Part shown: positions 384 through 25,510 of the stretch, piece by piece
Layout of the letters: each line of letters opens with the position of its first letter
How positions within the stretch are numbered: the stretch's first letter is position 1
IMG/VR virus record: IMGVR_UViG_3300042154_000217
Coordinates: 1 to 25,839 of that record
Length of the DNA: 25,839 nt
Reading direction: 5' to 3' (one strand)
From: a virus
Position numbers and translations under genes: made by a program
Notes under the pieces: generated by a model
What the model was told of the DNA's origin: nothing
Seen by the model: the letters and a program-made list of their open reading frames with translations, nothing else
Database searches by the model: none

Positions 384-391
384 TATCTTTG
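384..391 (+). promoter_or_regulatory. Bacteroidota-type -7 promoter element (TATCTTTG)
   Basis: An exact match to TAnnTTTG, the -7 consensus of Bacteroidota. No TTG lies at the usual 17-23 base distance upstream. A start of transcription near 395 would place the hairpin and T-tract at 408-447 about 13 bases into the message, so the main product would be a transcript of roughly 50 bases. Confidence 0.5.
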
Positions 392-557: not shown

Positions 558-565
558 TATATTTG
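558..565 (+). promoter_or_regulatory. Bacteroidota-type promoter for the 631-1915 genes (TATATTTG)
   Basis: An exact TAnnTTTG element. A TTG at 532-534 lies 23 bases upstream, at the long end of the spacing reported for flavobacterial promoters. Transcription would begin near 569, about 60 bases before the ATG at 631, with a hairpin and T-tract in between. Confidence 0.55.
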
Positions 566-10900: not shown

Positions 10901-10908
10901 TCTGGCAT
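1912..10908 (-). CDS. Giant polyvalent internal virion (ejected) protein
   Basis: This 2,998-residue protein is the last gene of the late block and is probably packed in the virion and ejected into the host. Residues 7-28 and 37-58 are tandem repeats of LYxVVxDxGLYTKS then F-x-x-K-Y; a Pro/Ala linker follows near 85-120. Residues 905-985 resemble the GNAT-like module of phage polyvalent proteins (GGIKLDNFDNYL, PDVVAMVY). Residues 1040-1200 resemble a zincin peptidase, but the motif is H1087-E-A-W-E1091, not HExxH. Residues 1590-1700 (VHYSDELRD, GVAMYYT) resemble the ADP-ribosyltransferase-like domain of such proteins. The rest is long helices, a hydrophobic stretch near 2785-2820, then an acidic run (GEDDDDDREEE). 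Polyvalent proteins (Iyer and colleagues, 2017) carry host-takeover effectors. Domain calls are by eye. The start follows the previous stop by one base. Confidence 0.75.
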   Translation of the reverse strand: MPEIENLYSVVKDNGLYTKSYDEFVSKYSDEQNMSKLYQVVYDQGLYTKSFNDFKGKYFTQVKKKESASPSQQGQQATSSATGAMGPDGAPAPSARKRYDVKGKPAQPVAPAAPAAQLTEKDLEMMMPFRGAVQETVVVDQQPTMQEKLQSEVNLAAGALTAASKPGFKPVPKEEADKALFGKSKVAPEDLDLNRGTRETILSDLTKKYGNLGVRFEIEPSKTQKALGLGDIRAIADDGSSITIQTTDNERMAKQEADKLQSFLMGKSAGVEKKPITPMEFLMMSRDGISPQEEGKFKRVYSQEMVDNSIKFANDELNNTKKAVDDINKEVAQLNEEAKKISEIVAVSGVTPDIEETYNSITQRYQDLQARADERVKYAKSIGALADEGVKKAVGENTRLLSYNGNIPSALYNSLLKGAKDLVGGAMAALPEVADIATLGASESFYGDKAQAKENSAKLLNEIYDNLKAEGVSKEYATEGNMAWKALFSVPEFIPSLLVPGGAAARVTAMTTQGIGRRFEEMNSNPETKNLPEEEKFFMAAGPALVEAKLENFGLTQWLGANKGLASSIFVSALSKVAPKAGVKGLNKIINAEISNLALRGAANTAGAMISEFETGALQNISDTAFRDAYEIAKGKDLFKQPGFGDKDFGKALLEDAMLEGLGGMWMAGAVNIAQQTSNYVTGKSNTNETFRLVKQILADETTSKSLIATLKAQIMDGKLSKEQAVNTINNFNEARAIAMELPQDLSEDNQRKAFDLIAEKRKLTKQIEGKDPSLVDKQKTRITAIDQELKNISNAVQEQTTSEVPVQPGAAVSGEVAQGEPQAEPEVVTEEGQAQEEVAQYIADLQETKQSDPEQYWSVDSVTEESAKEGTVISDEDGGVVVSKEGDIKGLFKKIGSKAKGVAQKLLQKAIDAGGIKLDNFDNYLTPIYEKAGFRVVSRVPFNEEYAPEGWNKEKHGTPDVVAMVYDPENKLDIQEQKFDDYDQAMAYRDQFIPQVQQQSEFDQAVNNSAQSLKMVAPDLKIIVAENTEDAQLQIAEALSAVVPTQAADVAEGFTTETRGQTVFVNGKPFAIVLDKSQADSKTVGHEAWELMLNDAFGDDQAKFKEFRDEIDRQLRLNGYGEIADALTKFSNQKGYEDVKYSEYMAELGGMLVADGFKQGSLDAKQKSLLQKIGDVINKFAQLFTGKKQFLDEATPEDILGFMVTISNKVAKGEDVSTFFREKNTQEIKDTKKVFSNRSQKIGDFDIQYFEDDAEFKDLVDRGLVVQNASIDEAGGQPVAIHQPDNLLVGNVNYKGKKIMEGNGGIYYVLKFGNVWASGKQTSAKTLSGYINKSRKESTDGIGRMVLVRGSQDKMISSVQGVKAAMRILEELVFDNLISTSDFRKALNAAGKSYNIDFSGSNSAKQIQKDIEDKFMNVSDSTFSDRGGFFSKLIDEIGKLESANKNIKEIRKALGTTKNIQFSREGIRKQIGTVLTERLLIGLDNSHAYAIVEVDEDVVVKKDDQHPSYPFSIVTKSGKPPVLKVFNYRPKAVEAITTMSGEKASNAQLGLAQMGMGMGRVASDKEIVVKSRSQKNVPTVVDEVLTDDGKGNYVFVHYSDELRDTIKPMSGSKKNFTSREEVSAISAVGGVAMYYTKQGQVESGVGNVPHTVLVPKDKVYFYGSTEKGTVSHDPEGFEEEARQRFQAYRNRGNEDRPTKYAFDANNSAAWVTKVAAENGYDMLVTNWGGPKSYRAQTTKALKPEAEYTGFKQIPEPTYEVGDEIFLYGRYATVVAVDGNTLSYESPNDFGRFDSGKFTLSPYTSNKIMLIEKAKPTVTTKSQKVVVNTIPGYERMMGEVEGILDKTMNRTGSYNQATANAVGYIQKSAVYERADDSQREQIVRDFVKLRGEKFKVAPSVGKILGQIKDTKKVTVNEKTALKDQIKLEAKAAKDAVAFVKQLRMQISNTLRGMAGRGVISAKQASTILARYDRMNILNPDMRDRFVDYMANVFQSAEYADKVKEATRLRKTIRKAAKNPDNQAESSKLAKTFAEIDPSRVENIDDYLNNAEQILKSVSRKTGDVKMRSLVNMTDMVSYIDKEIQEQRKQIKNEILSKYQDLVDAGVLDSKMTINEIKKVVAAIEENEDESEAKAKEAKAAVKQMMDEVSPILLQIARTGEDPFTGDPIDLTQDEKSAIVKLAKMDLDNLSLAEAVKALEYANNFIANGVTSGIVGMVDLYEGSLNAEKLAKKGFKSIPFKKYFSKGAGRIWAEQIASLPMLNKLMWGSTSRALEVSEASGVTGVSNGKAKAIKIVEKAVKEYVATFSKVKGFLSSENVVERGMLAFVSRTVIGDEFQAQDEFNRRKSLIEETIQALKDPENSTDAEIKKGEVVEKVYNKILKDAKNAKEVRENVSEVNKKAVDWWVNEWSKHYDRMDEVSRNVYNTLLSRDSNFTPDRFQLKEVSPAAEEDFDSGFFGNFENVSTEKSGSLKENKRIKNLPQNKNGVKTRIVNLDFDVNNVNALTNAMVDVETAGSVMQMKGFVTSKDFSKLFASKEDKNVYKKRLVSYVNRAKGQGYVDQSELKTLNRLVNAVASFGTAKALFSLSQPFKQSIPPLFNTLVQTGRLDLGTLMVGGFSFIDRTGYPIANRGISSQGELKSINRQLVEAEKNLLLRGVDGVAAYSNLMLELTLKYPDIMTARSSWLSFYKKGLKKEGIKTSGINWNTHEVNKKAADYAQMMVDSQQNISDSDMQGEFMASKDPAKAFLRRAIFPLMTFVLNQKTRIWADVRTLSNKAVTTAEDRQEAALSLAGALVELGAFSAISYAANSMLWEVAMNILAAVSGEDDDDDREEEKKKMILRRSAYTAQNFMKDFFVPPIPGADLLASKGINYILDETNLSSEIPADWFGIEDDRVKFRLYDKENQGYLDMLGTQGIALEKALELADYYDMAIDGTFKEESYGTKREKQILEGDADMARINAAIMTGYYGGLLPADVAYIVGQINKKIKKRAEVVEEED

Positions 10909-13025: not shown

Positions 13026-13433
13026 TTATAATACTTTAACTAGTTCAGTACACCCAACGCTACCCTTTTGAAAACCACACTCCATGTATTTATTGATGAG
13101 CGCTTCGTTCCTTAGTGACACGTAGGCATACTTTGCACCGTTTTCTTTTCCGTATTCTGACAGAGTGTCTATCAAGAACTTAATCGCGTCTTTACGATCA
13201 AGCTCCTTGTATTCAATGTTGGATACAATAAACTCTATCCAAACAGCTTTTGAGTTGGTAAAGTAAATGTACCCAGCACAGATGTCAACACCATCCTTTG
13301 AGACCATGATGCCACCTCGTCCGTCATTTGGCAAGAAGTCTCTACCCGGCGCTTCCCATCTCCACTGCTTCCACCACTTTGTCAAAGTGTTATCGTAGTC
13401 TTGATCGGTTAACGGCCTTGCGTCGAAACTCAT
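13026..13433 (-). CDS. GNAT-like N-acetyltransferase in the virion gene cluster
   Basis: This 135-residue protein is slightly short for the GNAT fold. The central strands read CAGYIYFTNS then WIEFIVSN, followed by a helix (RKDAIKFLIDTLSEYG) and the typical end LINKYMECGFQKG, where homologous enzymes bind acetyl-CoA and close the fold. The classical Q/RxxGxG/A loop is not obvious, so catalysis is uncertain. Similar short GNAT-like proteins recur among structural genes of podoviruses; substrates are unknown. It is the first gene after the promoter at 13441-13448, with only seven bases between promoter element and ATG, and leads directly into the ejection-protein genes. Confidence 0.7.
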   Translation of the reverse strand: MSFDARPLTDQDYDNTLTKWWKQWRWEAPGRDFLPNDGRGGIMVSKDGVDICAGYIYFTNSKAVWIEFIVSNIEYKELDRKDAIKFLIDTLSEYGKENGAKYAYVSLRNEALINKYMECGFQKGSVGCTELVKVL

Positions 13434-13440
13434 TGCTACG

Positions 13441-13448
13441 CAAAGATA
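13441..13448 (-). promoter_or_regulatory. Late promoter element (TATCTTTG)
   Basis: Reads TATCTTTG on the minus strand, preceded by TTCGC. Seven bases separate it from the ATG at 13433, so the message would have a leader of only about four bases. It drives the GNAT, ejection, cargo and polyvalent genes. No TTG is at -33 distance. Confidence 0.6.
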
Positions 13449-13454
13449 GCGAAG

Positions 13455-14219
13455 TTATGGGTAACTTTTGAATACCTGTGAAGAAATTGCAAATAATTCT
13501 ACAGCAGTAGAGCTAGTGTTCTCAAGCAGTACCGTCATAAAGTATCCGCGTGCACCGTAAGACTCAGCAACTGCGTTTTTGACAAACACAATAAAGTTTC
13601 CAGCTACCGGCACAGTGCCACCAACTACCATGTTAATGGTAACAGATGTTGCGTTGTGTGCAGTTACGACACCAGATATAGTCAGACCTCCAACGGATCC
13701 AATGTATATGGTGTCTCCAATGCTTACAGTGGTTCCAATTCCAAACGCAAAGTCTATTCTGTAGTTTCCTGCGGATATAGGCGTAACGGCAGACGCAGAC
13801 CCAATGCCCTGTGTAGACATGGCCTTCAAGTCCACGGTGTCCGGGTTTCTACGGATGTATGTAAAGTAGTCCCCCTCCTTCAACTCAAAGTACGATGCCT
13901 CCATTACGCCAGAGTTTAGGTCTGTGGTAACGGTCGCCTTCCATGGAGAGTCGGTCTCACACGCAAGCGTCTTGAACATCTTAGACTCGCTAGGCGCATC
14001 GTTGAAAACCACAGTTACGGTAGATGGGTCTGGATCGCTAGGGAGTAATGGATCTTTATACCAGTTGTTTCTACGTTGATTCGTGTTGTGCTTCCATAAC
14101 TCCCCAGACTTGAACGTGTACAAAAAGTTGTTCATGTTTGTCATCCACTCGGGATAGTAGGAGTGGAAAGATGTCCACCCATCGAGCATTGGTGAGTATG
14201 TAAGAGTATAGTTAGCCAT
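13455..14219 (-). CDS. Tail structural protein, detached muzzle-type C-terminal domain
   Basis: In this 254-residue, mostly beta-strand protein, residues 5-60 (DGWTSFHSYYPEWMTNMNN, YTFKSGELWKHNT, RRNNWY) match a pattern usually seen near the C-terminus of the large stabilization/muzzle proteins of crAss-like and related phages, followed by VVFNDAPSESKMFKTLACE. Here it is a separate gene after the 1,965-residue muzzle protein, whose own chain turns to a BACON domain at the point where this segment would be expected. Residues 167-214 form a small beta unit (IGDTIYI, GVVTA, TVPVAGNFIVFVK) resembling an insertion in the major capsid protein. It probably sits in the tail next to the muzzle. It has its own promoter four bases before the ATG. 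Confidence 0.65.
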   Translation of the reverse strand: MANYTLTYSPMLDGWTSFHSYYPEWMTNMNNFLYTFKSGELWKHNTNQRRNNWYKDPLLPSDPDPSTVTVVFNDAPSESKMFKTLACETDSPWKATVTTDLNSGVMEASYFELKEGDYFTYIRRNPDTVDLKAMSTQGIGSASAVTPISAGNYRIDFAFGIGTTVSIGDTIYIGSVGGLTISGVVTAHNATSVTINMVVGGTVPVAGNFIVFVKNAVAESYGARGYFMTVLLENTSSTAVELFAISSQVFKSYP

Positions 14220-14223
14220 TACA

Positions 14224-14231
14224 CAAAGTTA
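14224..14231 (-). promoter_or_regulatory. Late promoter element (TAACTTTG)
   Basis: Reads TAACTTTG on the minus strand in the 17-base gap between the muzzle gene and the 254-residue gene, preceded by TCG. Only four bases separate it from the ATG at 14219, which implies a leaderless or one-base-leader message. Confidence 0.55.
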
Positions 14232-14236
14232 CGACA

Positions 14237-17200
14237 TTAGCAGGCTTGAGTTAGTATCCATGCCGTTCCGCTCCATTGGTGTGCGTTAAGCAGATCAGCT
14301 TGGTTCTTATAGAATCCAGCTGGTGCAACCGTAGTTCCAGATGAGTTCAAGTACAGTGTACCACTTACCCCGATAGTTCCATTGGTCCAGTATGAGTAGT
14401 AGTTGGTGTCTGCACAAACAACTGGCTTAGTACCTGCGTCTGTCAAGAACACCTCGGTCAATGGAGCAGCTTCGCCTGTACACAGAGCGCAGCTAGCAGA
14501 TGTAACCAATGTGGTTGGAACGGTAAACGTAGCAGTCTGTGGAAGTAGGTCAGCAGTCTTAGTCCAGCAGTTCCCGTCGCTTGTCTTAAAGATGGTTCCG
14601 TTTGCAATCACACGAACTACCGCATCATAGAGAACTGCACTGTACGTGCTGTTACACAACGTGGCTTGGTAGTATCCACCAGCAGGTGGTACTGGAGGTG
14701 TTGGAGGTGTAGATCCGCAGTTAAATACTGCCAAAACTACTCCATCATTAGAGATTTGGCAACTTTGATTGTTGTTGGTCTTATACCAAAGGCTTCCCCC
14801 AACAAACACATTACCGCCTCTAGACTGCAAGTAAACGGTGTCTCCAACGATTGGATATGTGTAGTATCCGTTATGGTACAGGTAGTCCCATCCAAGAACT
14901 AACAAACCACACGCAGATGCAGACGTAGCCTGTCCGTTAATAAACACTTCAAATGGTGTTGCAGGCGTATCATTCAATATTGAAGATATTATAACTTGTG
15001 TAGATGGTCCGGTACCAAAGCAGTTAGTTGCTGTGAATGTCGCTTGATACTCGCCAATGCCCTCTACAAGTCCATTTATTATTCCAGTCTCCATATCGAA
15101 AGAAAGACCAGGTGGCAATGAAAATCCAGAACACCCGCCATTTGCAATAATAGTTGCATCGTCAGATCCAGATATTATAGACACTGTTCCTGATGAAAAA
15201 CATCTTTCTACTGTTTCGGAAGTAGAAACTACAACATTTTCGTAGTATCCAGTTTCACAGTTGGCTCCATAAAATACAGCTCCATTAGATCCGCCATAAA
15301 GAGTAAAAGAGGTGCACGAAGATACCAAGTTGTAGCTAGTTGGGCTGTTGGTGGCTGGAACTTTTAAGTTTACAGACTGACCAATAATAAACTCCATATC
15401 TGAAGCTGTAACAATTGGAGGAACTGTCTCAGAGCATACGCACGTAGCAATTTCTGTGACAACGCCACTTGATGTTACAAAGATTAAATTAGTTCCTGTT
15501 TTGTGATATGCATTTCCTCCATTGTACACAGTAGCGCCAGCAGCGTCGTTATATATCGTACAGCCAACAAGTACAGATCCACCGTCGGCGTTGTGGTACT
15601 TTGTGGTTGATGGAGTCTGTGAGCAAACGTTCGCAATGGTACCATTGGTAGTGTCAAGAGTAAATGAACTCAAGGCAGCACATGCGGTAGTAGCTGTCCA
15701 GCTATTTGATGATAGTGGAGAGTAAACAGTAAGCACAGTTTCTTCCGTAGACGTTTTAACAAAGCTCAAAGTTCCTGTACTGTTGTTGACTAAGCCATTG
15801 TAAGGAGCCGATAAGTTAATATCTTCCTCTGCAACACCGGCAGCAATCAACGCATTGTAGTTAGCCAAACTATTAAGACCAACATACCCACTGTCTGCAA
15901 CTATATTTCCGCCGATGGTAACAACGAAACGATCAGGAGTAGACTGCGCATCATAAGTAAACGAAGCACGTCCGTTTCCGGCGCCCATGTTTACGATGGT
16001 AGGTGTAGTTGTAGCTTCTCCGCTGTAAGATATAGAAGATCCACATGCCACGGTATTTCTGTAGTCCCAAACCAAGTACAGGTACGACTCGTTAGAGGGA
16101 GCTGTATACACAAACGTTCCGCTGTACTCTGAACCAACAAGCGACATGGTTACCGGTGTTCCAAGAGAGATAACAGTTGCGTAGTCTTCCTCAGTGTACT
16201 CTGTGTTAGACACTAAGTAGTATACCTTGTTTCCGGTTGACGGAATGAATGGATTCAATTCGGCGTTTAAGGTAGATGCGTTGTCCTTGTATGCGTAAAC
16301 AGTAACAGTGTCTCCAGGAGCTGGAATTCCATTTGTTCCAGCCACATCTGAAGTGGTATCGAACAACGCTACATCGACTGGCTTGAATATGGTGTCGTTA
16401 AACTCGTATCCTAGCGTTCCAGATCCTGTGTAGTTGTATTTCTGGCTTCCTACCTTCCCGCTCTCTTTTGGATCGCCCACAACGAATGTAGAGCGACGCT
16501 TGATAACGGTAGCAGTCTGTGTGATCGTAAACGTTCTTACAAGTCCACAAGATGCAGTAATTGTAAGAGTGGCAGTACGAGAAACACCTGTGTTGTTGGC
16601 GGCGATATCTGCCTCTACGTCTTGGTTTCCAGTGCCGCTAGATGGAGCTACAGTCATCCATGCCGGTATGTTTGTGATAACCCATCCAGAATTGGACTGT
16701 ATGTCAAAGATATTCTTGGTTTGGCCCGACTTGTCAACGGTCAAAGAAGAAGGCGTAACGGTCAATTCACAAGGAGACGCAGTGTCGTCGTTAGACGCGA
16801 GCACGTACATCTGATTGTATGGATCAAAAGTTCCGATCTTCTGTCTATTAATACCAGCGATGAACAGGTCCTTGAACCAGTCTCGCATGCCCTGCATAGA
16901 TATTTCTTGGATACTATTTCCAGAAATTGATAATGCAACACCACGGCGGGCGTCAGTAAAGAATAAGTTTTCACCCCACACAGCAAAGCTCTCTGGGTTT
17001 AAGCTTATTCCGTATTCTCCTGGAAATGAAATTTGCTTTCCTAAAACTTCCGGGATGCTAACGATAGATCCTCCACCAACAGAGTCGCTGATCAAGTTCT
17101 TTTCGTATAGAACAACAGACACTTTGTTTTCTTGGAATACTACCAAGTCGGTATCTCTGGCGTAAAGCTTTTGGATACTTCCAAAAAACCGGTCCACGTA

Positions 17201-20134
17201 CTTAAAGTTTGCGGTAGACAAGTTGAACTCATTAAGTCTATTGGTGCCCGTGTCCTCGCGGAAAACGCCACTGTATGTCAATCCATTTGTTACCTGCTCT
17301 TGCTCGTAGTTCTCAATGGTAGACAACACACGTGGGCTGTACTGCATCAACGAGCCATTGAAGTCGTCTCTGATACGATCGCTTTCTACGCCGTTTCTAA
17401 AGCAAAATGCATTATATACATTATCCAATTGAACCACGGCAGACTTCTTAGTAGATCCAGCCCCGGCACGTGTCTGTGTTGTTATGTTTCCTTCGTGAAG
17501 TCCATTACTAACGCCAAATGTTGCTACTTCATGGTAGATGTCAGCGTCACTAGAATTTGGAACCGTCTCAAGAACTACTGGTTCTTCAATCTGTGTAACC
17601 GTAAAATCTACAGTGATTGTGGATGGATCGCACTTGACGCCGTCTGTTGCAGGAGTGTTCCCGTATCCCAAAATATACATTCTAATAGCACCGTCTTTTG
17701 ACTGTGTACTAGAGTTCATACCATCTTTTACGAAATAGTCCTTGGACCTTCTAAAGAAAATGCTTTTGTATCCTTTATTTTGTCCATCCGCAAACATCAC
17801 AAAATTAGAGTACGCATTATCCTCAATAAACCACTCCTCAATGTTAGCATAGTTTGATGAAGATATGAATGTTTGTTTTGGTTGTTTAGAACCACCAACT
17901 ACTTTTGATTCATCTATGCTGAATGTTATCACAGCTCCAGCTTTGATTTCTAAATCTTCATTGTTGTCTATAAACCCTGGAACTATAGCACATGATCCAA
18001 TTGGGTCAGATCCTATTCCAGACGTGTTTGACGCAGCGCCTCCAGTGAAAATAGTTCTGTCTCCAAAATAGTTTAAACCTCCAACAGATCTACAATTTAT
18101 TCTCCAAGAGTCATTAATAACATGACCAGACAGGTTTGAGAATCTAATCGCTACTACATTTGTATTTGTATCGTCTTTTAAGTATTGAATACCTCCGGTA
18201 ATAGCAACGTTTGATTCTATAACCTTAGACGATCCGAACATGGTATATTTATACGTATTCTTACCGTCGATTGTCAATGTGAATCTTATATCTTTTCTAC
18301 CAAAGTTATTTACCCAGTTTTTATTGTTTTCAATACCAAGATCATTTACGCCCCTTCCATAAAAAATGGGAGTCTCGATAGTTGCGAATCTAAATGTAAG
18401 TGGGTTTATGTTATTAAATACACAAGCAAAATTGCCAAATGCTCCAACTTTTTGAGGAACTCCAGTCTTTCCAGAAGCTGTAACCTTATATGTAAACAAG
18501 TTGTCATCGTTAAATGCAACGTTGTTGTTTACCTTAATTTTAAGATATACCCCAGATAGGTTTGGCTTTGATGGGTTATTTAAGAAATCTTTTTCTTTAA
18601 CTTCAACCTCAAGAACTTTATACTGCTCTGCACTATAAGTAATTCCTAAAGGATCCGCCTTTATTACTATATAATCATTGGCCTTTACCTTATCTACGTC
18701 CGACTCGTTTATTAACATATAAACGAAAGGTCCGTCTGTATAGAATATTGTTGGATATATATTGTAGTATGCCCCCTTGTTCTGCTTGATCATTACGCGA
18801 TACTTCGTAGCAAATGCAGGAGCCTCGTTGTTAATTGTAAGCAACAGCTTGTTTCCTGTGTCAGAGTTTTCTGGACCAATGTATACGGAGTTTTCTACAG
18901 ACGCAAGCACTGTGCTCATGCGCCCGTATGCGTCAACATAAGAGATACCAATCTCGTAGTCTCTGTCGCTTCGCATGGTCTTTACTGGCTCTCCAATAAC
19001 ATATTCTGTAGATAATTTGCTTTCTGGAACTACGTCAACACCATAGTTCATGGTGATTGCTCCGCCAGCTATGTCTACAATATTGTAAAACTGCGTGTAG
19101 TTGCCGTATACTAAACGGCTCCCGATAAGCTCTTGAGCCTTCGCCTTCAACGGAACGTTATCGAACAAACGCGTTAGTTGGTTAGCAGGAAGAACGCTGT
19201 AGATTTTGTTGTTTGAGAATGATCTAAATGTAGCTATGTTTCCAGAACGACTCACATAACTTATCTTGTTGTTCCAAATATCTTCTCTAGAAAAGCTATC
19301 AATAACATTTATGTTAAGTCCAGACGAGTCTCTGAATACAAGTTGTATCTCTTTTACAATATCAGACCCAATGTCAAAAGACACATCAGCCGAGTTGTAA
19401 AAGTTAACCATTGACTTGTTAACGCCAGTACCGTAGTCGTACTGGAAGTCTTTTGGGAAGAAAGCAACCTCAGAGAACGGAGCAAGCGAGCTGTACTCGT
19501 TGTTCTGATACTTGTACCGGTAAGAGAAGTACAAGAACTTGTCGGTCATGTTGTTCGTGTCAGTCCCGTCAGTCTTCAACGCGATTGTAGGCGCTGTCAA
19601 CGGTGGCTTTACGATAACATTAATCTCTTCTTCTGTGAAGTTGTTGTATGGGTAGTATGTTTTGGTATCGATTCTGCGAGGAGGATTGAGTCCGTCCGTC
19701 CAGAACAACAAGTCACTGATATAGTTTACACCGGTGATCAAGTACTGAGTATTGAAGTTGAGAACATTCGCGGCACCGGCCCTTGTGTCCATAGCCAACA
19801 CGGTAGTTAATCCAGTCAACTCGTTGTATGATGCAACGATGTTTCCCCCTACAGCTTTTACAAACCAAAATATCAAAAACTCAGAAGGGACCGCAATGGA
19901 TCCGATAGCCTTTGCTCCGGTCAATGAAAATGCAGAACCAGAAAACGCAGTAGCAGCAGCAGCTAGTCCGCTTACTTTGGTATTTCCAAGCTCATTCGAC
20001 AGAGCACCAACGTCTGACCCCTCGGACGTGCCGATGGTAACGTTCATTGCATCTCTGTACTGTCCATCTGGGACCAGGCGCTCGTCCAGGTCCTTGTTCA
20101 TTATACCAGCTACTAGGCTTCTCTTTAACTCCAT
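14237..20134 (-). CDS. Giant tail stabilization/muzzle protein with BACON domain and C-terminal receptor-type modules
   Basis: This 1,965-residue protein opens with MNKDLDERLVPDGQYRDA and EGSDVGALSNELGN, the hallmark start of the tail stabilization ('muzzle') proteins of crAss-like phages, which close the portal channel. Residues up to about 1,110 form the muzzle body. A BACON domain follows at about 1120-1209 (SGWVITNIPAWMTVAPSSG, SRTATLTIT), a carbohydrate-binding type also known from crAssphage. Residues about 1650-1712 hold an Ig-like He_PIG unit (LPPGLSFDMETGIINGLVEG). Three related modules of about 80 residues end in cysteine: 1489-1570, 1727-1805 and 1890-1965. These exposed C-terminal parts probably bind host surface glycans. 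Start and previous stop overlap as TAATG. DNA from about 17.8 to 18.7 kb is visibly AT-richer than its flanks. Confidence 0.8.
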   Translation of the reverse strand: MELKRSLVAGIMNKDLDERLVPDGQYRDAMNVTIGTSEGSDVGALSNELGNTKVSGLAAAATAFSGSAFSLTGAKAIGSIAVPSEFLIFWFVKAVGGNIVASYNELTGLTTVLAMDTRAGAANVLNFNTQYLITGVNYISDLLFWTDGLNPPRRIDTKTYYPYNNFTEEEINVIVKPPLTAPTIALKTDGTDTNNMTDKFLYFSYRYKYQNNEYSSLAPFSEVAFFPKDFQYDYGTGVNKSMVNFYNSADVSFDIGSDIVKEIQLVFRDSSGLNINVIDSFSREDIWNNKISYVSRSGNIATFRSFSNNKIYSVLPANQLTRLFDNVPLKAKAQELIGSRLVYGNYTQFYNIVDIAGGAITMNYGVDVVPESKLSTEYVIGEPVKTMRSDRDYEIGISYVDAYGRMSTVLASVENSVYIGPENSDTGNKLLLTINNEAPAFATKYRVMIKQNKGAYYNIYPTIFYTDGPFVYMLINESDVDKVKANDYIVIKADPLGITYSAEQYKVLEVEVKEKDFLNNPSKPNLSGVYLKIKVNNNVAFNDDNLFTYKVTASGKTGVPQKVGAFGNFACVFNNINPLTFRFATIETPIFYGRGVNDLGIENNKNWVNNFGRKDIRFTLTIDGKNTYKYTMFGSSKVIESNVAITGGIQYLKDDTNTNVVAIRFSNLSGHVINDSWRINCRSVGGLNYFGDRTIFTGGAASNTSGIGSDPIGSCAIVPGFIDNNEDLEIKAGAVITFSIDESKVVGGSKQPKQTFISSSNYANIEEWFIEDNAYSNFVMFADGQNKGYKSIFFRRSKDYFVKDGMNSSTQSKDGAIRMYILGYGNTPATDGVKCDPSTITVDFTVTQIEEPVVLETVPNSSDADIYHEVATFGVSNGLHEGNITTQTRAGAGSTKKSAVVQLDNVYNAFCFRNGVESDRIRDDFNGSLMQYSPRVLSTIENYEQEQVTNGLTYSGVFREDTGTNRLNEFNLSTANFKYVDRFFGSIQKLYARDTDLVVFQENKVSVVLYEKNLISDSVGGGSIVSIPEVLGKQISFPGEYGISLNPESFAVWGENLFFTDARRGVALSISGNSIQEISMQGMRDWFKDLFIAGINRQKIGTFDPYNQMYVLASNDDTASPCELTVTPSSLTVDKSGQTKNIFDIQSNSGWVITNIPAWMTVAPSSGTGNQDVEADIAANNTGVSRTATLTITASCGLVRTFTITQTATVIKRRSTFVVGDPKESGKVGSQKYNYTGSGTLGYEFNDTIFKPVDVALFDTTSDVAGTNGIPAPGDTVTVYAYKDNASTLNAELNPFIPSTGNKVYYLVSNTEYTEEDYATVISLGTPVTMSLVGSEYSGTFVYTAPSNESYLYLVWDYRNTVACGSSISYSGEATTTPTIVNMGAGNGRASFTYDAQSTPDRFVVTIGGNIVADSGYVGLNSLANYNALIAAGVAEEDINLSAPYNGLVNNSTGTLSFVKTSTEETVLTVYSPLSSNSWTATTACAALSSFTLDTTNGTIANVCSQTPSTTKYHNADGGSVLVGCTIYNDAAGATVYNGGNAYHKTGTNLIFVTSSGVVTEIATCVCSETVPPIVTASDMEFIIGQSVNLKVPATNSPTSYNLVSSCTSFTLYGGSNGAVFYGANCETGYYENVVVSTSETVERCFSSGTVSIISGSDDATIIANGGCSGFSLPPGLSFDMETGIINGLVEGIGEYQATFTATNCFGTGPSTQVIISSILNDTPATPFEVFINGQATSASACGLLVLGWDYLYHNGYYTYPIVGDTVYLQSRGGNVFVGGSLWYKTNNNQSCQISNDGVVLAVFNCGSTPPTPPVPPAGGYYQATLCNSTYSAVLYDAVVRVIANGTIFKTSDGNCWTKTADLLPQTATFTVPTTLVTSASCALCTGEAAPLTEVFLTDAGTKPVVCADTNYYSYWTNGTIGVSGTLYLNSSGTTVAPAGFYKNQADLLNAHQWSGTAWILTQAC

Positions 20135-21033
20135 TACTTGATCCAGTTATCTTGGTTTCTCAATACCATTAAAATGCGTCCAGCACTGATGTTGGACAAT
20201 CGAATTTTAGCGTTTCTAAGCATAGCTGACTTCTCTTCTCTCGCACGTCTTACAACGTACTCTTGAACGCCAACCCTGTTGTTCAACACTGCCCACTTGA
20301 TGTAAGAGTATATGAACTCCTCTGCGAGTTTGTTGACCTTCACGGCATTGTCATCGCCATTCTCAAGACCATCAGAAATGTACTCAATAACGACCAATTT
20401 ATTGCTCATGCCAGAGCTGAAGTTGATAACTCCGGCAGACTTGTCAATTCTGAATGTTGGGTTGATGTTCGCAGCTTCTGCGTTTAGACCAAACCATCCG
20501 CCAAGGCTGTAGTTGAAGTACCAGTAACCATCCACGTTCCATCCCCAGCGCCCATTGGCCCAGCCCTCTCCGTAGAAGATGTCGTATGGGTATCCTTGGA
20601 TGCGCTTGATGTCAAGCTCGGACGTTCCTGTAATTACATTCCCGTCTTGATCGTACAACACGTTGTCGTTAGAGTCCTTCAAGTATGCCTGAGCATAGTT
20701 CACAGTTGCGTTCTCGTGCAACGTGTACAAAACGCCCTCGACCTCCATAGAGATCCTAGCGTAGTTCACGTAGTCTGGAGGCAACACCAATGTCAAGTCT
20801 GCACCAACGTTCAGCTCTAGAACTTTTACGTTCCTAGCCGCGTCGTAGTTCAACTCTTGTATTGCACGCTTCGCATGAAAAAGTGCATTGTATCTGTTCA
20901 GCGTTCCGATCAGCTTGTCGTCGCCAACGTACATCAACATGAAGTTGTTGACGATGTCGGCCAAAGACACGTACTGATAGTCTCCGCTGTTGTTTGGGTC
21001 AGAGTAGTATGCTTGGTTAGTTATGTATGCCAT
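20134..21033 (-). CDS. Head-tail ring/connector protein
   Basis: This 299-residue protein has an N-terminal segment SLADIVNNFMLMYVGDDK, then FHAKRAIQELNYDA, then LVLPPDYVNYARISM, matching by eye a conserved ring/connector protein that follows the capsid genes in crAss-like phages and is compared with P22 gp4. It would form a ring below the portal and dock the tail. A middle beta region is rich in Trp and Tyr (GWANGRWGWNVDGYWYFNYS), possibly a phage-specific surface loop. The C-terminus is a basic helical arm (REEKSAMLRNAKIRL). It is translationally coupled to both neighbours by one-base TAATG overlaps, which suggests matched amounts of both ring proteins and the muzzle. Confidence 0.7.
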   Translation of the reverse strand: MAYITNQAYYSDPNNSGDYQYVSLADIVNNFMLMYVGDDKLIGTLNRYNALFHAKRAIQELNYDAARNVKVLELNVGADLTLVLPPDYVNYARISMEVEGVLYTLHENATVNYAQAYLKDSNDNVLYDQDGNVITGTSELDIKRIQGYPYDIFYGEGWANGRWGWNVDGYWYFNYSLGGWFGLNAEAANINPTFRIDKSAGVINFSSGMSNKLVVIEYISDGLENGDDNAVKVNKLAEEFIYSYIKWAVLNNRVGVQEYVVRRAREEKSAMLRNAKIRLSNISAGRILMVLRNQDNWIK

Positions 21034-21725
21034 TAGCTTTGCTTAGTTTGTTCTGCGTTGTCTGATCCTGTGGCGAACTGCACTACTTCGGCTTCTCGAA
21101 TATTCACACCTGCGTATGACAAGATCTTGAAAACTAAGTCGTTTTGTTCGCTTTGCGGAAGCTCAAAGTCTTGATAGTCAACAGCTGACTGGTTGAATAT
21201 AGGCGAGCCTGCCACGACAGTATATGTCCACTTAGGATCAAGAGGGTAGCGAACATACATCGCGCTGACGCTACTTGTGATCGATGCCGGGTAAACCTTA
21301 ATATCATCTCCTTTTTGGTAATATGCTGGATAGGCTGTGGTTGGTGCAGTAATGTTTGAACTCAGCAAGTTCATCACCTTGTTCTGGGCCACATATTCAA
21401 TTTCTTTAGTGCCGAATAGTACAACATTAACGTAGTACCAGTCAGCAGGAAGGGCAAACGATTGAGAAGGAGCATCGTATACCAGAGTAGATGACGTAGA
21501 GAATTCATCAATTGTTTCTGCAATATTTTTTTGAATGTTGGCGTAGCCATCATTTGCCAGTCTGGCGTTTCTTTTATTTACCCAGTTGGTATAGTCGTAA
21601 AAGTACTGCTCAAAGATTTCAAGCTGTGCTTGCTTGGCAAATAAGTTGAACTCCTCCGGCGTAATATAACCGTTGTTATCCTTATTGAGGATAGCCATAA
21701 CGGTATTTCTTACGGTGTTTATCAT
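21033..21725 (-). CDS. Head-tail adaptor/ring protein with an EF-hand-like loop
   Basis: This is a 230-residue protein from the ATG at 21723-21725. A GTG ten codons upstream is open but lies in the loop of the terminator at 21743-21773 and before the promoter at 21733-21740, so it cannot be the start. GAGG precedes the chosen ATG. An N-terminal helical part (EEFNLFAKQAQLEIFEQYF) is followed by beta-rich sequence (FALPADWYYVNVVLFG, DIKVYPASI), as in ring/adaptor proteins encoded just after the capsid cluster of crAss-like phages. Residues 14-25 (NKDNNGYITPEE) fit the spacing of a calcium-binding EF-hand loop. It leads a three-gene unit with the second ring protein and the muzzle protein. Confidence 0.7.
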   Translation of the reverse strand: MINTVRNTVMAILNKDNNGYITPEEFNLFAKQAQLEIFEQYFYDYTNWVNKRNARLANDGYANIQKNIAETIDEFSTSSTLVYDAPSQSFALPADWYYVNVVLFGTKEIEYVAQNKVMNLLSSNITAPTTAYPAYYQKGDDIKVYPASITSSVSAMYVRYPLDPKWTYTVVAGSPIFNQSAVDYQDFELPQSEQNDLVFKILSYAGVNIREAEVVQFATGSDNAEQTKQS

Positions 21726-21732
21726 GTCCTCA

Positions 21733-21740
21733 CAAAGATA
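21733..21740 (-). promoter_or_regulatory. Late promoter element (TATCTTTG)
   Basis: Reads TATCTTTG on the minus strand directly after the T-tract of the preceding terminator. Seven bases separate it from the ATG at 21725, including GAGG. It starts the ring-ring-muzzle unit. Confidence 0.65.
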
Positions 21741-21742
21741 AC

Positions 21743-21773
21743 AAAAAAAGGCCACCCCTTGCGAGATGGCCTT
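21743..21773 (-). terminator. Strong terminator after the 93-residue gene
   Basis: On the minus strand AAGGCCA (21773-21767) pairs with TGGCCTT (21754-21748) around a 12-base loop, and the T-run continues to give seven Ts (21749-21743). It lies 20 bases past the stop codon of the 93-residue gene and runs straight into the next promoter. Confidence 0.8.
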
Positions 21774-21793
21774 ATTTCAAATAGTTTTAATGG

Positions 21794-22075
21794 TTACGCT
21801 ACAGCAATTCCACTAACTGCGTATGGAAGGTTTGATACAGTGTACGCAACATTAGTCCAAGAAGTCTGCAAAGCAGCAACTACGGCGTTTTGAATTGCGT
21901 CACGCTCTGTTTCGTCTCCAGCGCCAGCAGTGGCATGTGTAAGTGTAACCACTTTGCCGCCACCATAAGTGACAGTAACGGTGGTTGTAGAGGCTTGTTC
22001 AATCAAAATGATTCCTGTAGCCTGGACTAGCTGATTTTGTTCGCTAGTAACTGGGATGCTTAAAAATTTCTCCAT
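21794..22075 (-). CDS. Small beta-rich protein, possible capsid decoration or auxiliary protein
   Basis: This 93-residue protein has no cysteine and no charge clusters. It begins FLSIPVTSEQNQLV, followed by strands TTTVTVTYGGGKVVTLTHA, a helix with ERDAIQNAVVAALQTSW, and a final strand pair. I do not recognise a family. It stands alone between its own promoter (22080-22087) and a strong terminator (21743-21773), a set-up suited to independent, high-level expression, and it sits among capsid genes. A decoration or other abundant structural protein is therefore a reasonable guess, with no motif to prove it. Promoter and ATG are four bases apart, implying a leaderless message. Confidence 0.65.
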   Translation of the reverse strand: MEKFLSIPVTSEQNQLVQATGIILIEQASTTTVTVTYGGGKVVTLTHATAGAGDETERDAIQNAVVAALQTSWTNVAYTVSNLPYAVSGIAVA

Positions 22076-22079
22076 ACAA

Positions 22080-22087
22080 CAAATATA
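22080..22087 (-). promoter_or_regulatory. Late promoter element (TATATTTG)
   Basis: Reads TATATTTG on the minus strand, preceded by TTATTCG, the same bases that precede the scaffold promoter. It lies in the 19-base gap after the 246-residue gene, four bases before the ATG at 22075. Confidence 0.6.
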
Positions 22088-22094
22088 CGAATAA

Positions 22095-22835
22095 TTACGA
22101 TAATTTATTCTTCACAACTTCAGCAACTGGCAATCCCTCTTCGCTTTCAAAGTATACGGTCAACGCAGACACTGCGTCATCTCCTGGCTGTAAGTTCATT
22201 AACTTTCGCTTATTTCCAGGAATGTTAAACCAGATCTCTCTGTTGTTGTTACGCAATGTAAACATTCCCGCGTCCAAAGCTCTTGACGCCATGGCTGTGT
22301 CTTGCAAGTCTGGATCTGCTACCATCTCTAAGAACTCTTTTGGATACTGTCTAGCGTACAATAAGATGTCTCTCTTGATTTCTGGTGTGGTCATCGTTTC
22401 AATAACGCCACCATACAATAATTGAGCGATAGACAACATGGTTTCTAACTCCAAGTTTCTGGCGGCAATCTGTGCGTCCAACTCAATATTGAGTTCTTCG
22501 ATGTCCTTAGCAGCCTCTTTCTCTGTGTTAAGCTCTCTAAATACGTCTCCATTCAATGGGTGTAAGTCCATGAATTTACTAAGCATTGGATTGTTTGATG
22601 ATACAATTAATACACCATCTTCAAAGATGATTGGTTCCAAAATCGCCTTGTCGTCCTGTTCATCCTCGAACACTGACTTTTGATTTCTAGAGTAACGAAG
22701 TGCTCGGTTTGCGGTTCCGTCAAAGTGCAACAAAGAAAAACGCTTGGTGTTTCTCGAAGGCAATGTGTAGCTCAATGGAGCTTTGTCTTTTGTAAGGATG
22801 AATACTCGATCCTTTAGCTGATTTGATTGTTTCAT
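22095..22835 (-). CDS. Conserved structural-cluster protein of unknown function
   Basis: This is a 246-residue protein from the ATG at 22833-22835. The frame is open 43 codons further up, but that extension overlaps the capsid gene, the terminator and the promoter, so it is not used. The N-terminal third is beta-rich and basic (DRVFILTKDKAPLSYTL, KRFSLLHFDG); a helical middle contains AAKDIEELNIELDAQIAARN and a pattern TPEIKRDILLYARQYPKEFL; a final domain contains REIWFNIPGNKRKLMNL. Proteins of this pattern occur directly after the capsid gene in related Bacteroidota phages, but I cannot assign a function. A capsid auxiliary or vertex protein would fit the position. It has its own promoter, with a leader similar to that of the scaffold gene. 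Confidence 0.65.
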   Translation of the reverse strand: MKQSNQLKDRVFILTKDKAPLSYTLPSRNTKRFSLLHFDGTANRALRYSRNQKSVFEDEQDDKAILEPIIFEDGVLIVSSNNPMLSKFMDLHPLNGDVFRELNTEKEAAKDIEELNIELDAQIAARNLELETMLSIAQLLYGGVIETMTTPEIKRDILLYARQYPKEFLEMVADPDLQDTAMASRALDAGMFTLRNNNREIWFNIPGNKRKLMNLQPGDDAVSALTVYFESEEGLPVAEVVKNKLS

Positions 22836-22856
22836 AATTTGATTTGATTTACGGTA

Positions 22857-22864
22857 CAAATATA
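22857..22864 (-). promoter_or_regulatory. Late promoter element (TATATTTG)
   Basis: Reads TATATTTG on the minus strand, starting within the T-tract of the capsid-gene terminator. It is 21 bases before the ATG at 22835. The leader contains CGTAAATCAAATC, nearly the same as the leader of the scaffold promoter at 25486-25493. Confidence 0.65.
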
Positions 22865-22897
22865 AACAAAAAGGGTGAGTACATTGTACCCACCCTT
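22862..22897 (-). terminator. Strong terminator after the major capsid gene
   Basis: On the minus strand AAGGGTGGGTAC (22897-22886) pairs with GTACTCACCCTT (22882-22871), 12 pairs with one G-U, around a three-base loop. TTTGTTTAT follows. It begins 21 bases past the capsid stop codon and ends the scaffold-capsid transcript. Confidence 0.85.
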
Positions 22898-22918
22898 CTG
22901 TGATAATCTTGGTTAAGA

Positions 22919-24319
22919 TTAAGCGGTCTTGAACAAGAAGAAGTTGTTCGCGCCCAATGTGCACAATGCACGCTCAGACAAGAAGTTAACTCTCATTGCA
23001 TCCAAATCGCTAGTAGAAGCACCACCGGCAGAACCAGTAATCCAAGTCTTGTAGCGACGGTTCTCAGTTTCGCTAGCGCGGTAACGAACGTGCAAGAAAG
23101 GACGTTTAGCGTTCTTACCCATCACCATGTCGTAAACGTTAGTAGAACCAGCAGGAACCAACACACCATTAACTTCACCACCATTGATACCACCACGCAA
23201 AGTTGCGTCGTTCAAGTATTTCCAATCGGTCTTGTAGAAGTCATAGCCACGCTTAAAGCCTTTGAAGCCCAAGTTCAACGCCATGTTTTCGTCGTTGTTG
23301 AACACACCGTAGCTAGTTCCGTTAACGCCGTAGCTGTTTTGGGTAGACAACATGTCATCGATGTCGAAACCGAAGTTACGGTTAACGAACAACATGTTTT
23401 CTTGGATAGAACCTTGCTTGTCCAAACGCTGAATGATTGCGTCGAAATCAGCCAAGGTACTTGGGTTTCCACCACCCCAAACGTTACCACGTTGTTCGAT
23501 AGTGTAGAACAAACCGTCGGTACCCTTGTTTCCTACGTCACCGGTAGCTGCAATAGCACCAGATGCGGTTTCAGCAGGAACGCCTTCGATCATAGCCATT
23601 TCCAAGTAGTCCTCGAAACGCAAGCGAGTTTCGTGCTCAGACTTGATGTACCACAAGTAGCCAGTTGCACCATTTTCAGTAGTAACTTCTACCCATCCGA
23701 TCTGAGCCATGTCAGAACCAGATACTTCGTAGTTGTCCTTGATAATGATAGGGCTGTTGTCAAAGATTGAATCTTCAGCCTCCAAAGAGCCAGCCATTCC
23801 ATTGCTGCCCTTTTTAAACTCAGAACCGTAAACAAATGCAGTAGAAGTAGTTGATACAGGGATGGTCTGACCACCAGCAGCGTAGTAAGCTACAGTGAAA
23901 GTCAATCCAGATACTGCGGTGATGATAGCTTTATCGCTTTGGGTACCACCAGCATTGCGAGACAAGAACACAGTCTGACCTACGCGGAAGTTACAGGCAG
24001 TAATGCCTGAGTCAGCAACTGTCCAAGTAGCGGTGTCAGAAGCAGCAGCAGCAGCAGAAGTACAGCTTACATACTTGGTATGCAAACGACCTTGCTCTGC
24101 CCACTTAATCAAGTCAGAGTTAGAAGGCATCTCGGCACCTACTTGGCGCAAGAAAGATGCGATAGAGCGATTACCGTAACGCTCGAATTCCTTCTCGTAA
24201 GTATCAGGAAGATACTGATTCAAGAAATCGAAGTTGGTAATGTAATTTGAAGGCAAAGTTGCCTTAACGGATGAGGGGGTTATAGCAAACCCGGGACTCA
24301 CTTGAACTGATCCAGCCAT
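22919..24319 (-). CDS. Major capsid protein (HK97-fold, crAss-like type)
   Basis: This 466-residue protein is close in length to crAss-like capsid proteins. Recognisable conserved blocks are NYITNFDFLNQYLPDTYEKE near the N-terminus, ENMLFVNRNFGFDIDDML, GTSYGVFNN, FKGFKRGYDFYKTDWKYLND, KRPFLHVRYRASETENRRYK and LSERALCTLGANNFFLF at the end. Residues about 85-170 form an inserted beta domain (VGQTVFL at 113-119, AFVY at 161-164) with an Ala/Ser/Thr-rich lead-in, probably exposed on the capsid surface. It follows the scaffold gene by 23 bases and has no promoter of its own, so both share one transcript, ended by the strong terminator at 22862-22897. G/C-ending codons leave long accidental reading frames on the other strand. 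Confidence 0.9.
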   Translation of the reverse strand: MAGSVQVSPGFAITPSSVKATLPSNYITNFDFLNQYLPDTYEKEFERYGNRSIASFLRQVGAEMPSNSDLIKWAEQGRLHTKYVSCTSAAAAASDTATWTVADSGITACNFRVGQTVFLSRNAGGTQSDKAIITAVSGLTFTVAYYAAGGQTIPVSTTSTAFVYGSEFKKGSNGMAGSLEAEDSIFDNSPIIIKDNYEVSGSDMAQIGWVEVTTENGATGYLWYIKSEHETRLRFEDYLEMAMIEGVPAETASGAIAATGDVGNKGTDGLFYTIEQRGNVWGGGNPSTLADFDAIIQRLDKQGSIQENMLFVNRNFGFDIDDMLSTQNSYGVNGTSYGVFNNDENMALNLGFKGFKRGYDFYKTDWKYLNDATLRGGINGGEVNGVLVPAGSTNVYDMVMGKNAKRPFLHVRYRASETENRRYKTWITGSAGGASTSDLDAMRVNFLSERALCTLGANNFFLFKTA

Positions 24320-24342
24320 AGTTTTGTTTTTTTAGTTTTTTG

Positions 24343-25464
24343 TTATCTGTTACTCATTTTTATCTTGAGCCCACTTCCGTGGTCAGAGTCCAAAGCAACA
24401 ACTTTGAAACCAGTTGTAGGCGTGAGCTGTGGTGCCGACCGAACGTCCATCTGGATATTCTTTGACTCCTTCGCTACACTGTCTACTGCTGCGGCTCTGC
24501 CTTGCTCATAAAAGTGCTTGGCAAAACTGTCTGGGTTCATCGCTACTGCGATAGCTCTGTGGTATGCAGCTGGGTCCTTAATGAATCCTTTCTCGTCTAA
24601 GAAAGAACCAATAAACTTGCTTACGTCAGATTGAGCCTTTTTCAGTTGTTCTGGACTGCTAGGCTTAAACGAGAGAGACTTGTCGTCGATCTTAAATTCA
24701 AAACCTTTGAACTGATCGCTGAAAAGCTCGTCTGTCTTCTTAGCAAAGAACTCTGAGCGCTCTAACTGAGCCTTCTGCACTTCCTCGGATTCTTGAGCAT
24801 ATCTTTTGAAGTCCTCGTACATACTTTTCTCTTCGTCAGAAACTAAGCCACCCCTTGACTCAACGGGTACCTTGTACTGTTCCTTCAGTTTGTTGAAGTA
24901 GTCTTTGGCCTTTGCAAGATCTTTTTTCATTGCTAGCTTCTTCTTCTTAACGTCTTTTGGATCGTCAAGGTCTTCATCAAAGTCGTACCGAGTCTCGATT
25001 TCGTACTTTACGTCTTCGTCGTCATACTCTGGATTCTCCTGTTTGATGAATTCAGCTAGCAGTTGATTTGCAGGAACATCGTCGTAGTTCTTATTCAACT
25101 GAATAAAATCTTCGATTCCTCGTCCGGTCTCTTTCTTGTATTTCAAGAACGCAGACACGTCTTCTGGTAGTTCCTCCGCCTCTTTTCTCGCCTCGAACAA
25201 ATCGTCAACTGAGTTGATTTCTTTGTTGTACCGATTTTTTAAATATGTAAGAACGTCTGTATCTTCTAGCTCCTTGGCTTGCGCCTCAGTGCTTTCGATC
25301 TTTTCTGTTGTCCCGTCAGCGGCCACTACTGTGGTTTCTACCGGGGCTTCTTCAGAAGACAAGCCATGCTTCTCTTCGTGCTCTTTCAGAAGTTGTGCTT
25401 CGATTTCTTGAACAGATTTCTGTTCCTCGAAGGCTACTTCCTTCACTTTGAATTCATTTTCCAT
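24343..25464 (-). CDS. Capsid scaffolding protein
   Basis: This 373-residue protein is strongly acidic and helical, with long Glu/Lys-rich segments (KKKKLAMKKDLAKAKDYF, RYAQESEEVQKAQLERSEF), an unstructured Thr/Glu-rich region near 40-65, and a basic tail ending GSGLKIKMSNR. This charge layout, acidic coiled coil with a basic C-terminus, is typical of scaffolding proteins, whose C-terminus binds the inside of the capsid shell and which leave or are digested after assembly. Its place between portal and capsid genes is also standard. No protease motif was seen. A promoter lies 21 bases before the ATG, and the capsid gene follows on the same transcript. Confidence 0.75.
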   Translation of the reverse strand: MENEFKVKEVAFEEQKSVQEIEAQLLKEHEEKHGLSSEEAPVETTVVAADGTTEKIESTEAQAKELEDTDVLTYLKNRYNKEINSVDDLFEARKEAEELPEDVSAFLKYKKETGRGIEDFIQLNKNYDDVPANQLLAEFIKQENPEYDDEDVKYEIETRYDFDEDLDDPKDVKKKKLAMKKDLAKAKDYFNKLKEQYKVPVESRGGLVSDEEKSMYEDFKRYAQESEEVQKAQLERSEFFAKKTDELFSDQFKGFEFKIDDKSLSFKPSSPEQLKKAQSDVSKFIGSFLDEKGFIKDPAAYHRAIAVAMNPDSFAKHFYEQGRAAAVDSVAKESKNIQMDVRSAPQLTPTTGFKVVALDSDHGSGLKIKMSNR

Positions 25465-25485
25465 ATAAGATTTGATTTTACGTCA

Positions 25486-25493
25486 CAAATTTA
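25486..25493 (-). promoter_or_regulatory. Late promoter element of the scaffold-capsid unit (TAAATTTG)
   Basis: Reads TAAATTTG on the minus strand, preceded by TTATTCG and followed by TGACGTAAAATCAAATC. GTCACA/TGTGAC arms at 25482-25487 and 25502-25507 flank the element and could be an operator. The ATG at 25464 is 21 bases downstream. Confidence 0.65.
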
Positions 25494-25510
25494 CGAATAA
25501 ATGTGACACG

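Follow-up and report, generated by a model that had tools for sequence, protein, structure and literature searches.

The window considered here is the entire IMG/VR record IMGVR_UViG_3300042154_000217 (25,839 bases), a genome fragment of a podovirus-like phage; phages related to it infect Flavobacterium, Cellulophaga, and Maribacter. Its late genes form a block on the minus strand, and the gaps between them carry octamers of the type TAnnTTTG, candidate promoter elements that are the subject of this analysis. The gene in the scaffold position (24343..25464; phrog_16786, unknown function), called scaffold presumptively from its place, opens a unit that ends after the gene of the major capsid-type virion protein (22919..24319; phrog_13704, E 4e-109). 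The other genes with adjacent elements are g4 (22095..22835), g5 (21794..22075; 93 amino acids, function unknown), the virion protein gene g6 (21033..21725; phrog_14543, E 5e-54), g9 (13455..14219; phrog_38031, E 2.5e-49), and g10 (13026..13433; phrog_17252, E 3.7e-48), all on the minus strand. The open reading frames (ORFs) of g4 and g6 were trimmed from GTG codons at 22964 and 21755 to homolog-supported ATG codons at 22835 and 21725 before the gaps were counted.

An earlier reading of the DNA alone (the sequence-only reading) listed six exact matches to TAnnTTTG on the minus strand, at 13441, 14224, 21733, 22080, 22857, and 25486. All six are present, and all fit TAHHTTTG, that is, have no G at either variable position, in agreement with their proposed identity as the Bacteroidota -7 box. 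The scaffold-capsid unit is preceded by TAAATTTG (25486..25493), with 21 bases between the G of the element and ATG 25464. The element of g4 is TATATTTG (22857..22864), also 21 bases from its ATG at 22835, and the transcripts of both units are predicted to be leadered. The remaining distances are much shorter: 4 bases for TATATTTG of g5 (22080..22087, ATG 22075) and for TAACTTTG of g9 (14224..14231, ATG 14219), both predicted to give leaderless transcripts, and 7 bases for TATCTTTG of g6 (21733..21740, ATG 21725) and of g10 (13441..13448, ATG 13433), each with a predicted leader of about 2-3 nucleotides (nt). A possible operator is the inverted repeat GTCACA...TGTGAC (25479-25506, minus strand), which overlaps the box of the scaffold promoter and is conserved in close relatives including L005 and L006.

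The elements occupy all gaps of at least 17 bases (17, 19, 21, 46, 68, and 83 bases) except the scaffold-capsid gap (23 bases), and none occurs in junctions of 1-3 bases or in overlaps, so the originally described distribution holds after the trimming of g4 and g6. Equal density inside coding sequence, which the sequence-only reading had named as evidence against its own proposal, was not observed: on the coding strand of the block TAnnTTTG occurs at 21.3 per kb in gaps versus 0.25 per kb in coding sequence, approximately an 85-fold difference (Fisher p = 2e-9), and for TAHHTTTG the values are 21.3 and 0.13 per kb (p = 2e-10). Over the full window there is no enrichment (25 matches found, 20.9 expected), which could suggest that the matches in A/T-rich gaps arise by chance or from base composition. 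However, the whole-window count is uninformative, because coding sequence dilutes the signal, and the contrast between gaps and genes leaves this explanation hardly conceivable.

Moreover, chance is already refuted by comparison with relatives. Viral loci were gathered by capsid, g10, and g6 protein searches (178 loci), and orthologs were counted as distinct if their sequences around the start differed by over 15%. TAHHTTTG was found within 60 bases of the ATG in 56 of 64 distinct orthologs of the scaffold-position gene, 18 of 19 of g5, all 45 of g6, and 18 of 19 of g10. It is less kept upstream of g4 (9/77) and g9 (4/29), and the rest of the block has almost none (portal 0/45, capsid 0/86, g7 2/60, g8 0/37, g12 0/12); upstream of the capsid gene start there is a long A-rich leader in its place. 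Pooling the scaffold, g5, g6, and g10 orthologs, the element lies 4-35 bases before the ATG in 136 of 147 cases, versus 1 of 247 for the control genes of the block. Nine alternative patterns, including scrambles, occur in 0-6 of the same 147 gaps, and variants with G at either variable position in none. Such conservation goes well beyond what the window by itself can tell and establishes the elements as functional sites; it also bears out the proposal of a phage-wide set. The g4 element reflects either a lineage-specific gain or repeated loss. The description of TAnnTTTG as a motif of the late block stands for the gaps of the block, but not as a restriction, since in near-complete relatives TAHHTTTG is found elsewhere as well.

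The promoters of F. johnsoniae have TAHHTTTG at positions -12 to -5, with transcription starting 4 or 5 bases downstream of the G, and a -33 motif that stands out far less clearly than their -7 box (PMC6847099). In the window, as originally noted, no element has TTG at the -33 distance (0/6 at spacers of 17-23 bases), and this absence, together with the flanking bases, had been taken as a sign that a phage factor assists recognition. The corresponding alternative is that the late promoters are phage-dependent, the box and extra flanking bases being read by a phage-coded factor or polymerase. For comparison, elements were collected from four Bacteroidota chromosomes (1.6 Mb, 1,399 called genes), referred to below as hosts. 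Among 98 elements of relatives, 10 have TTG at these spacers, with no peak and no excess over scrambled trinucleotides; among 111 host elements there are 21, with a small peak of 14 at spacers 19-20. This difference favours a phage factor, and so does the greater uniformity of the phage elements: C occupies the second variable position in 68% of them versus 25% in hosts, and T follows the G in 77% versus 35%. However, 90 of the 111 host elements also lack TTG. Thus the -33 box is scarce in hosts too, its absence is no evidence for a phage factor, and we rejected it as a mark of one; nor was the box taken as a defining feature of the host promoter type.

The flanks do not support such a factor either. 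TCG or TTCGC indeed precedes four of the six window elements, but TCG stands directly before TA in only 2 of the 98 relatives' elements and is limited to close relatives. Similarly, TG follows three of the six window elements, but relatives favour TA (54/98). Both flanks were therefore rejected as signals. No other conserved extra element was seen in the relatives except an A/T-rich stretch at approximately -21 to -16 (in the 98 phage elements, A+T exceeds 90% at most of the positions -9 to -4 before TA), and this stretch is present, although weaker, in hosts. At their core the phage elements match the host box, and like it they exclude G, which is absent from both variable positions in all 98; in near-complete relatives the same element also serves genes elsewhere. 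No match to sigma-70 region 4 (PF04545) above the cut-off was found in nine relatives, nor a match to T7-type RNA polymerase (PF00940), although the latter search had no positive control and its negative result is weak. The DxDGD motif was absent from the called ORFs of six genomes. A scan for promoters of the E. coli sigma-70 type (TTGACA/TATAAT) produced 16 candidates versus 22 expected in shuffled sequences, giving no sign of such promoters. These data support the interpretation of the elements as promoters of the Bacteroidota -7 type, forming a set shared across the phage group. Reading by a phage factor is improbable; it is not supported, and nothing in the sequence appears to demand it.

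Two features were overlooked in the sequence-only reading, the short distances between promoters and start codons and the fusion of promoters with terminators. If the offset of 4-5 bases is applied to the spacings of 4-7 bases at g5, g6, g9, and g10, four of the six late transcripts are predicted to have no leader or almost none, with the 5' end at the ATG or no more than about 3 bases from it. The spacings of 154 distinct phage elements fall into two classes: none at 0-3 bases, 40 at 4-8, none at 9-12, and 111 at 13-35. Orthologs of g5 have spacings of either 4-7 or 29-31 bases, all four g9 orthologs with an element have 4-8, and 17 of 18 g10 orthologs with an element have 4-7. On the g6 protein tree, a quick tree with weak deep branches, the spacing class changes at least 7 times, although the start codon is conserved throughout. 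Thus the empty zone at 9-12 is not one inherited accident.

It might be argued that the elements 4-7 bases from the ATG are ribosome sites rather than promoters, since both the position and the tight distance are as for a Shine-Dalgarno sequence. However, the class switches at g6 with a fixed start codon mean that the motif, unlike a ribosome site, is not tied to the start codon, and orthologs of both g5 and g6 in relatives bear the same box 13-31 bases upstream. The box agrees with the promoter consensus even in lacking G, Bacteroidota mRNAs naturally have no Shine-Dalgarno sequences (PMC6847099), and the co-transcribed capsid gene, for which strong expression is expected, has no box in any of 86 orthologs. 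As the box shifts relative to the same start codon among relatives, we rejected this very improbable reading and retain promoters.

The same method applied to host chromosomes yielded a sharp peak at 4 bases (18 genes), with 48 genes at 4-8, 13 at 9-12, and 185 at 13-35, whereas five control motifs gave 2-7, 0-9, and 13-29, respectively. The host dip spans 9-16 bases and is real but partial. The share of elements at 4-8 bases among the proximal ones is 9/15 in G001, 7/12 in G002, 6/10 in G004, and 4/6 in the window, versus 48/246 in hosts (p = 0.001, 0.005, 0.007, and 0.018, respectively). These values should be read with the close relationship of the window to G001 and G002 in mind, and with the fact that the window had already been inspected when the shares were compared. 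There is no excess in G003, phi38:1, Panino, MW202828, or elemo (p = 1). Leaderless-type spacing has moderate support as a lineage trait, accounting for about 60% of the proximal elements in the window's lineage (G001, G002, and the window). Such placement is unusual for these hosts: leaderless mRNAs make up 5.5% in F. psychrophilum (PMC9723704), and 5' untranslated regions shorter than 10 nt make up 3.7% in B. thetaiotaomicron (PMC7366714), shares even below the one counted in the host chromosomes. The literature searched, which covered few subscription journals, contained no mapping of transcript starts in any phage of this group and no account of leaderless phage mRNA in Bacteroidota. Overlapping TAHHTTTG elements, one of them of the leaderless type, were observed face to face in G001 (L181, approximately 53111-53646) and at the same place in G002; they adjoin a divergent gene for a 155-amino-acid protein that by eye resembles winged-helix regulators.

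Terminators directly precede some of the promoters. An intrinsic terminator hairpin after the capsid gene (22869..22899, minus strand) has a T-run that ends beside the -7 box at 22857, and the T-run of a hairpin after g5 (21748..21773, minus strand) ends directly upstream of the box at 21733. A T-run precedes the element in 43 of 45 g6 orthologs, with a hairpin below -6 kcal/mol in 42 of these 43; in 42 of 45 g6 promoters its last base lies 1-4 bases ahead of TA, and the median hairpin energy is -13.6 kcal/mol. Such joints were found at only 6 of 232 host elements. At g6 and g4 the A/T-rich stretch near -18 is the terminator T-run itself. Thus a single T tract at about -21 to -16 may serve both the terminator and the promoter.

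Taken together, it is quite likely that the six elements are -7 boxes read by the host primary sigma factor (sigma-A/sigma-ABfr), each of them starting or boosting transcription of one late unit, presumably by unmodified host polymerase. The units would be scaffold with capsid, g4, g5, g6-g7-g8, g9, and g10 to g13. Transcription of g5 and g9 would begin with the A of the ATG or the base before it, and the mRNA would be translated without a leader; at g6 and g10 the leader would have some 2-3 bases. Transcripts from the scaffold and g4 promoters would have ordinary leaders, A-rich and about 16-17 bases long. The preceding terminator T-run continues into the promoter at g6 and g4, so that the end of one unit would be the beginning of the next, and the late block would be a chain of host-transcribed units with each promoter packed in the smallest sufficient gap. 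Indeed, a gap of 17-21 bases leaves no room for a leader, and thus the transcript would start at the ATG. However, short gaps are not the whole explanation, because the g6 gap has 68 bases and the spacing is still 7.

Several points weigh against this interpretation. The start offset was taken over from F. johnsoniae, which may not be the host of the window phage. Host genes were called with a simple script accepting only ATG starts, the host dip at 9-12 bases is only partial (13 genes), and few distinct orthologs have the g9 element (4 of 29) or the g4 element (9 of 77). A rather unlikely extension is that the lineage has moved most of its promoters to leaderless positions as a translation strategy, for instance to fit ribosomes altered in the course of infection, and that leaders about 5-8 bases long are rejected by the ribosomes of Bacteroidota. 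Such rejection would explain why spacings jump between 4-8 and at least 13 bases, skipping 9-12. Phage-coded bS21 was considered as a tie to altered ribosomes and rejected, as it had no match in nine relatives.

Two further elements of the same promoter type lie on the plus strand, TATCTTTG at 384..391, which precedes a short RNA whose end resembles a terminator, and TATATTTG at 558..565, before a second short hairpin RNA and an ORF of 61 amino acids at 631. The first RNA (392-451) contains a 20-base core, GCATACCGTTAGATCTGCTC. If one base is left free, this core is found in at least 119 viral stretches (loci L279 to L391) and in none of 198 genomes of the phylum Bacteroidota. Rfam has no match in the window or at the core sites of 12 sampled loci. 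The arms flanking the core covary, the mean helix having 5.61 base pairs versus 4.12 (maximum 4.59) with the 3' arms swapped (51 distinct sequences). The core RNA is often found near transfer RNA genes in large phages, and is a candidate new virus-only RNA family. The second unit (558-628), with a terminator-like hairpin (z = -3.05), lies directly before the 61-amino-acid ORF, and could be a small RNA or an attenuator. A phage contig carrying the core, L351, also contains a sequence similar to the Type III hammerhead (1234-1293, minus strand; 36.1 bits, below the Rfam cut-off of 48.5).

The last gene of the block (1912-10908, minus strand) encodes a protein of 2998 amino acids with no Pfam match; its sole PHROG match is small, of unknown function, and covers residues 836-965. 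The last gene of the block is similarly large in relatives. Among capsid relatives, the contigs L082, L083, and L088 are labelled as an Aliivibrio metagenome-assembled genome (MAG), an Aenigmatarchaeota MAG chromosome, and a Pseudomonadales MAG, respectively, and are probably mis-binned flavophage sequences.

A fixed start codon with a promoter that has repeatedly moved between leaderless and leadered positions constitutes a natural experiment on how Bacteroidota ribosomes find the start without Shine-Dalgarno sequences, and the gap in the spacing distribution predicts a forbidden leader length. In addition, late transcription starts are predicted to the base for a large group of flavophages, and a terminator and a promoter are seen packed in one joint.

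The phage elements are similar to the primary-sigma promoters of Bacteroidota described in F. johnsoniae (PMC6847099), F. psychrophilum (PMC9723704), and B. thetaiotaomicron (PMC7366714): both have the same TAHHTTTG with no G at the variable positions, a weak or absent -33 box, and an A/T-rich stretch centred near -18. They differ in that the late elements of the phages vary less (TATCTTTGTA-like) and are often joined directly to a terminator T-run, and in that the elements of the window's lineage mostly lie 4-7 bases from the ATG. Pervagoviridae and related flavophages (Cellulophaga phi38:1, the Flavobacterium elemo phages, Maribacter Panino) share the capsid family, the gene order, and TAHHTTTG before late genes, but phi38:1, elemo, and Panino have only one or two elements at 4-8 bases per genome, which is the host level of leaderless use. 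As in known leaderless mRNAs, the promoter box is set so that transcription would begin at or just before the AUG. However, in Bacteroidota such mRNAs have been published as rare, whereas in the lineage of the window this placement is found at approximately 60% of the proximal elements.

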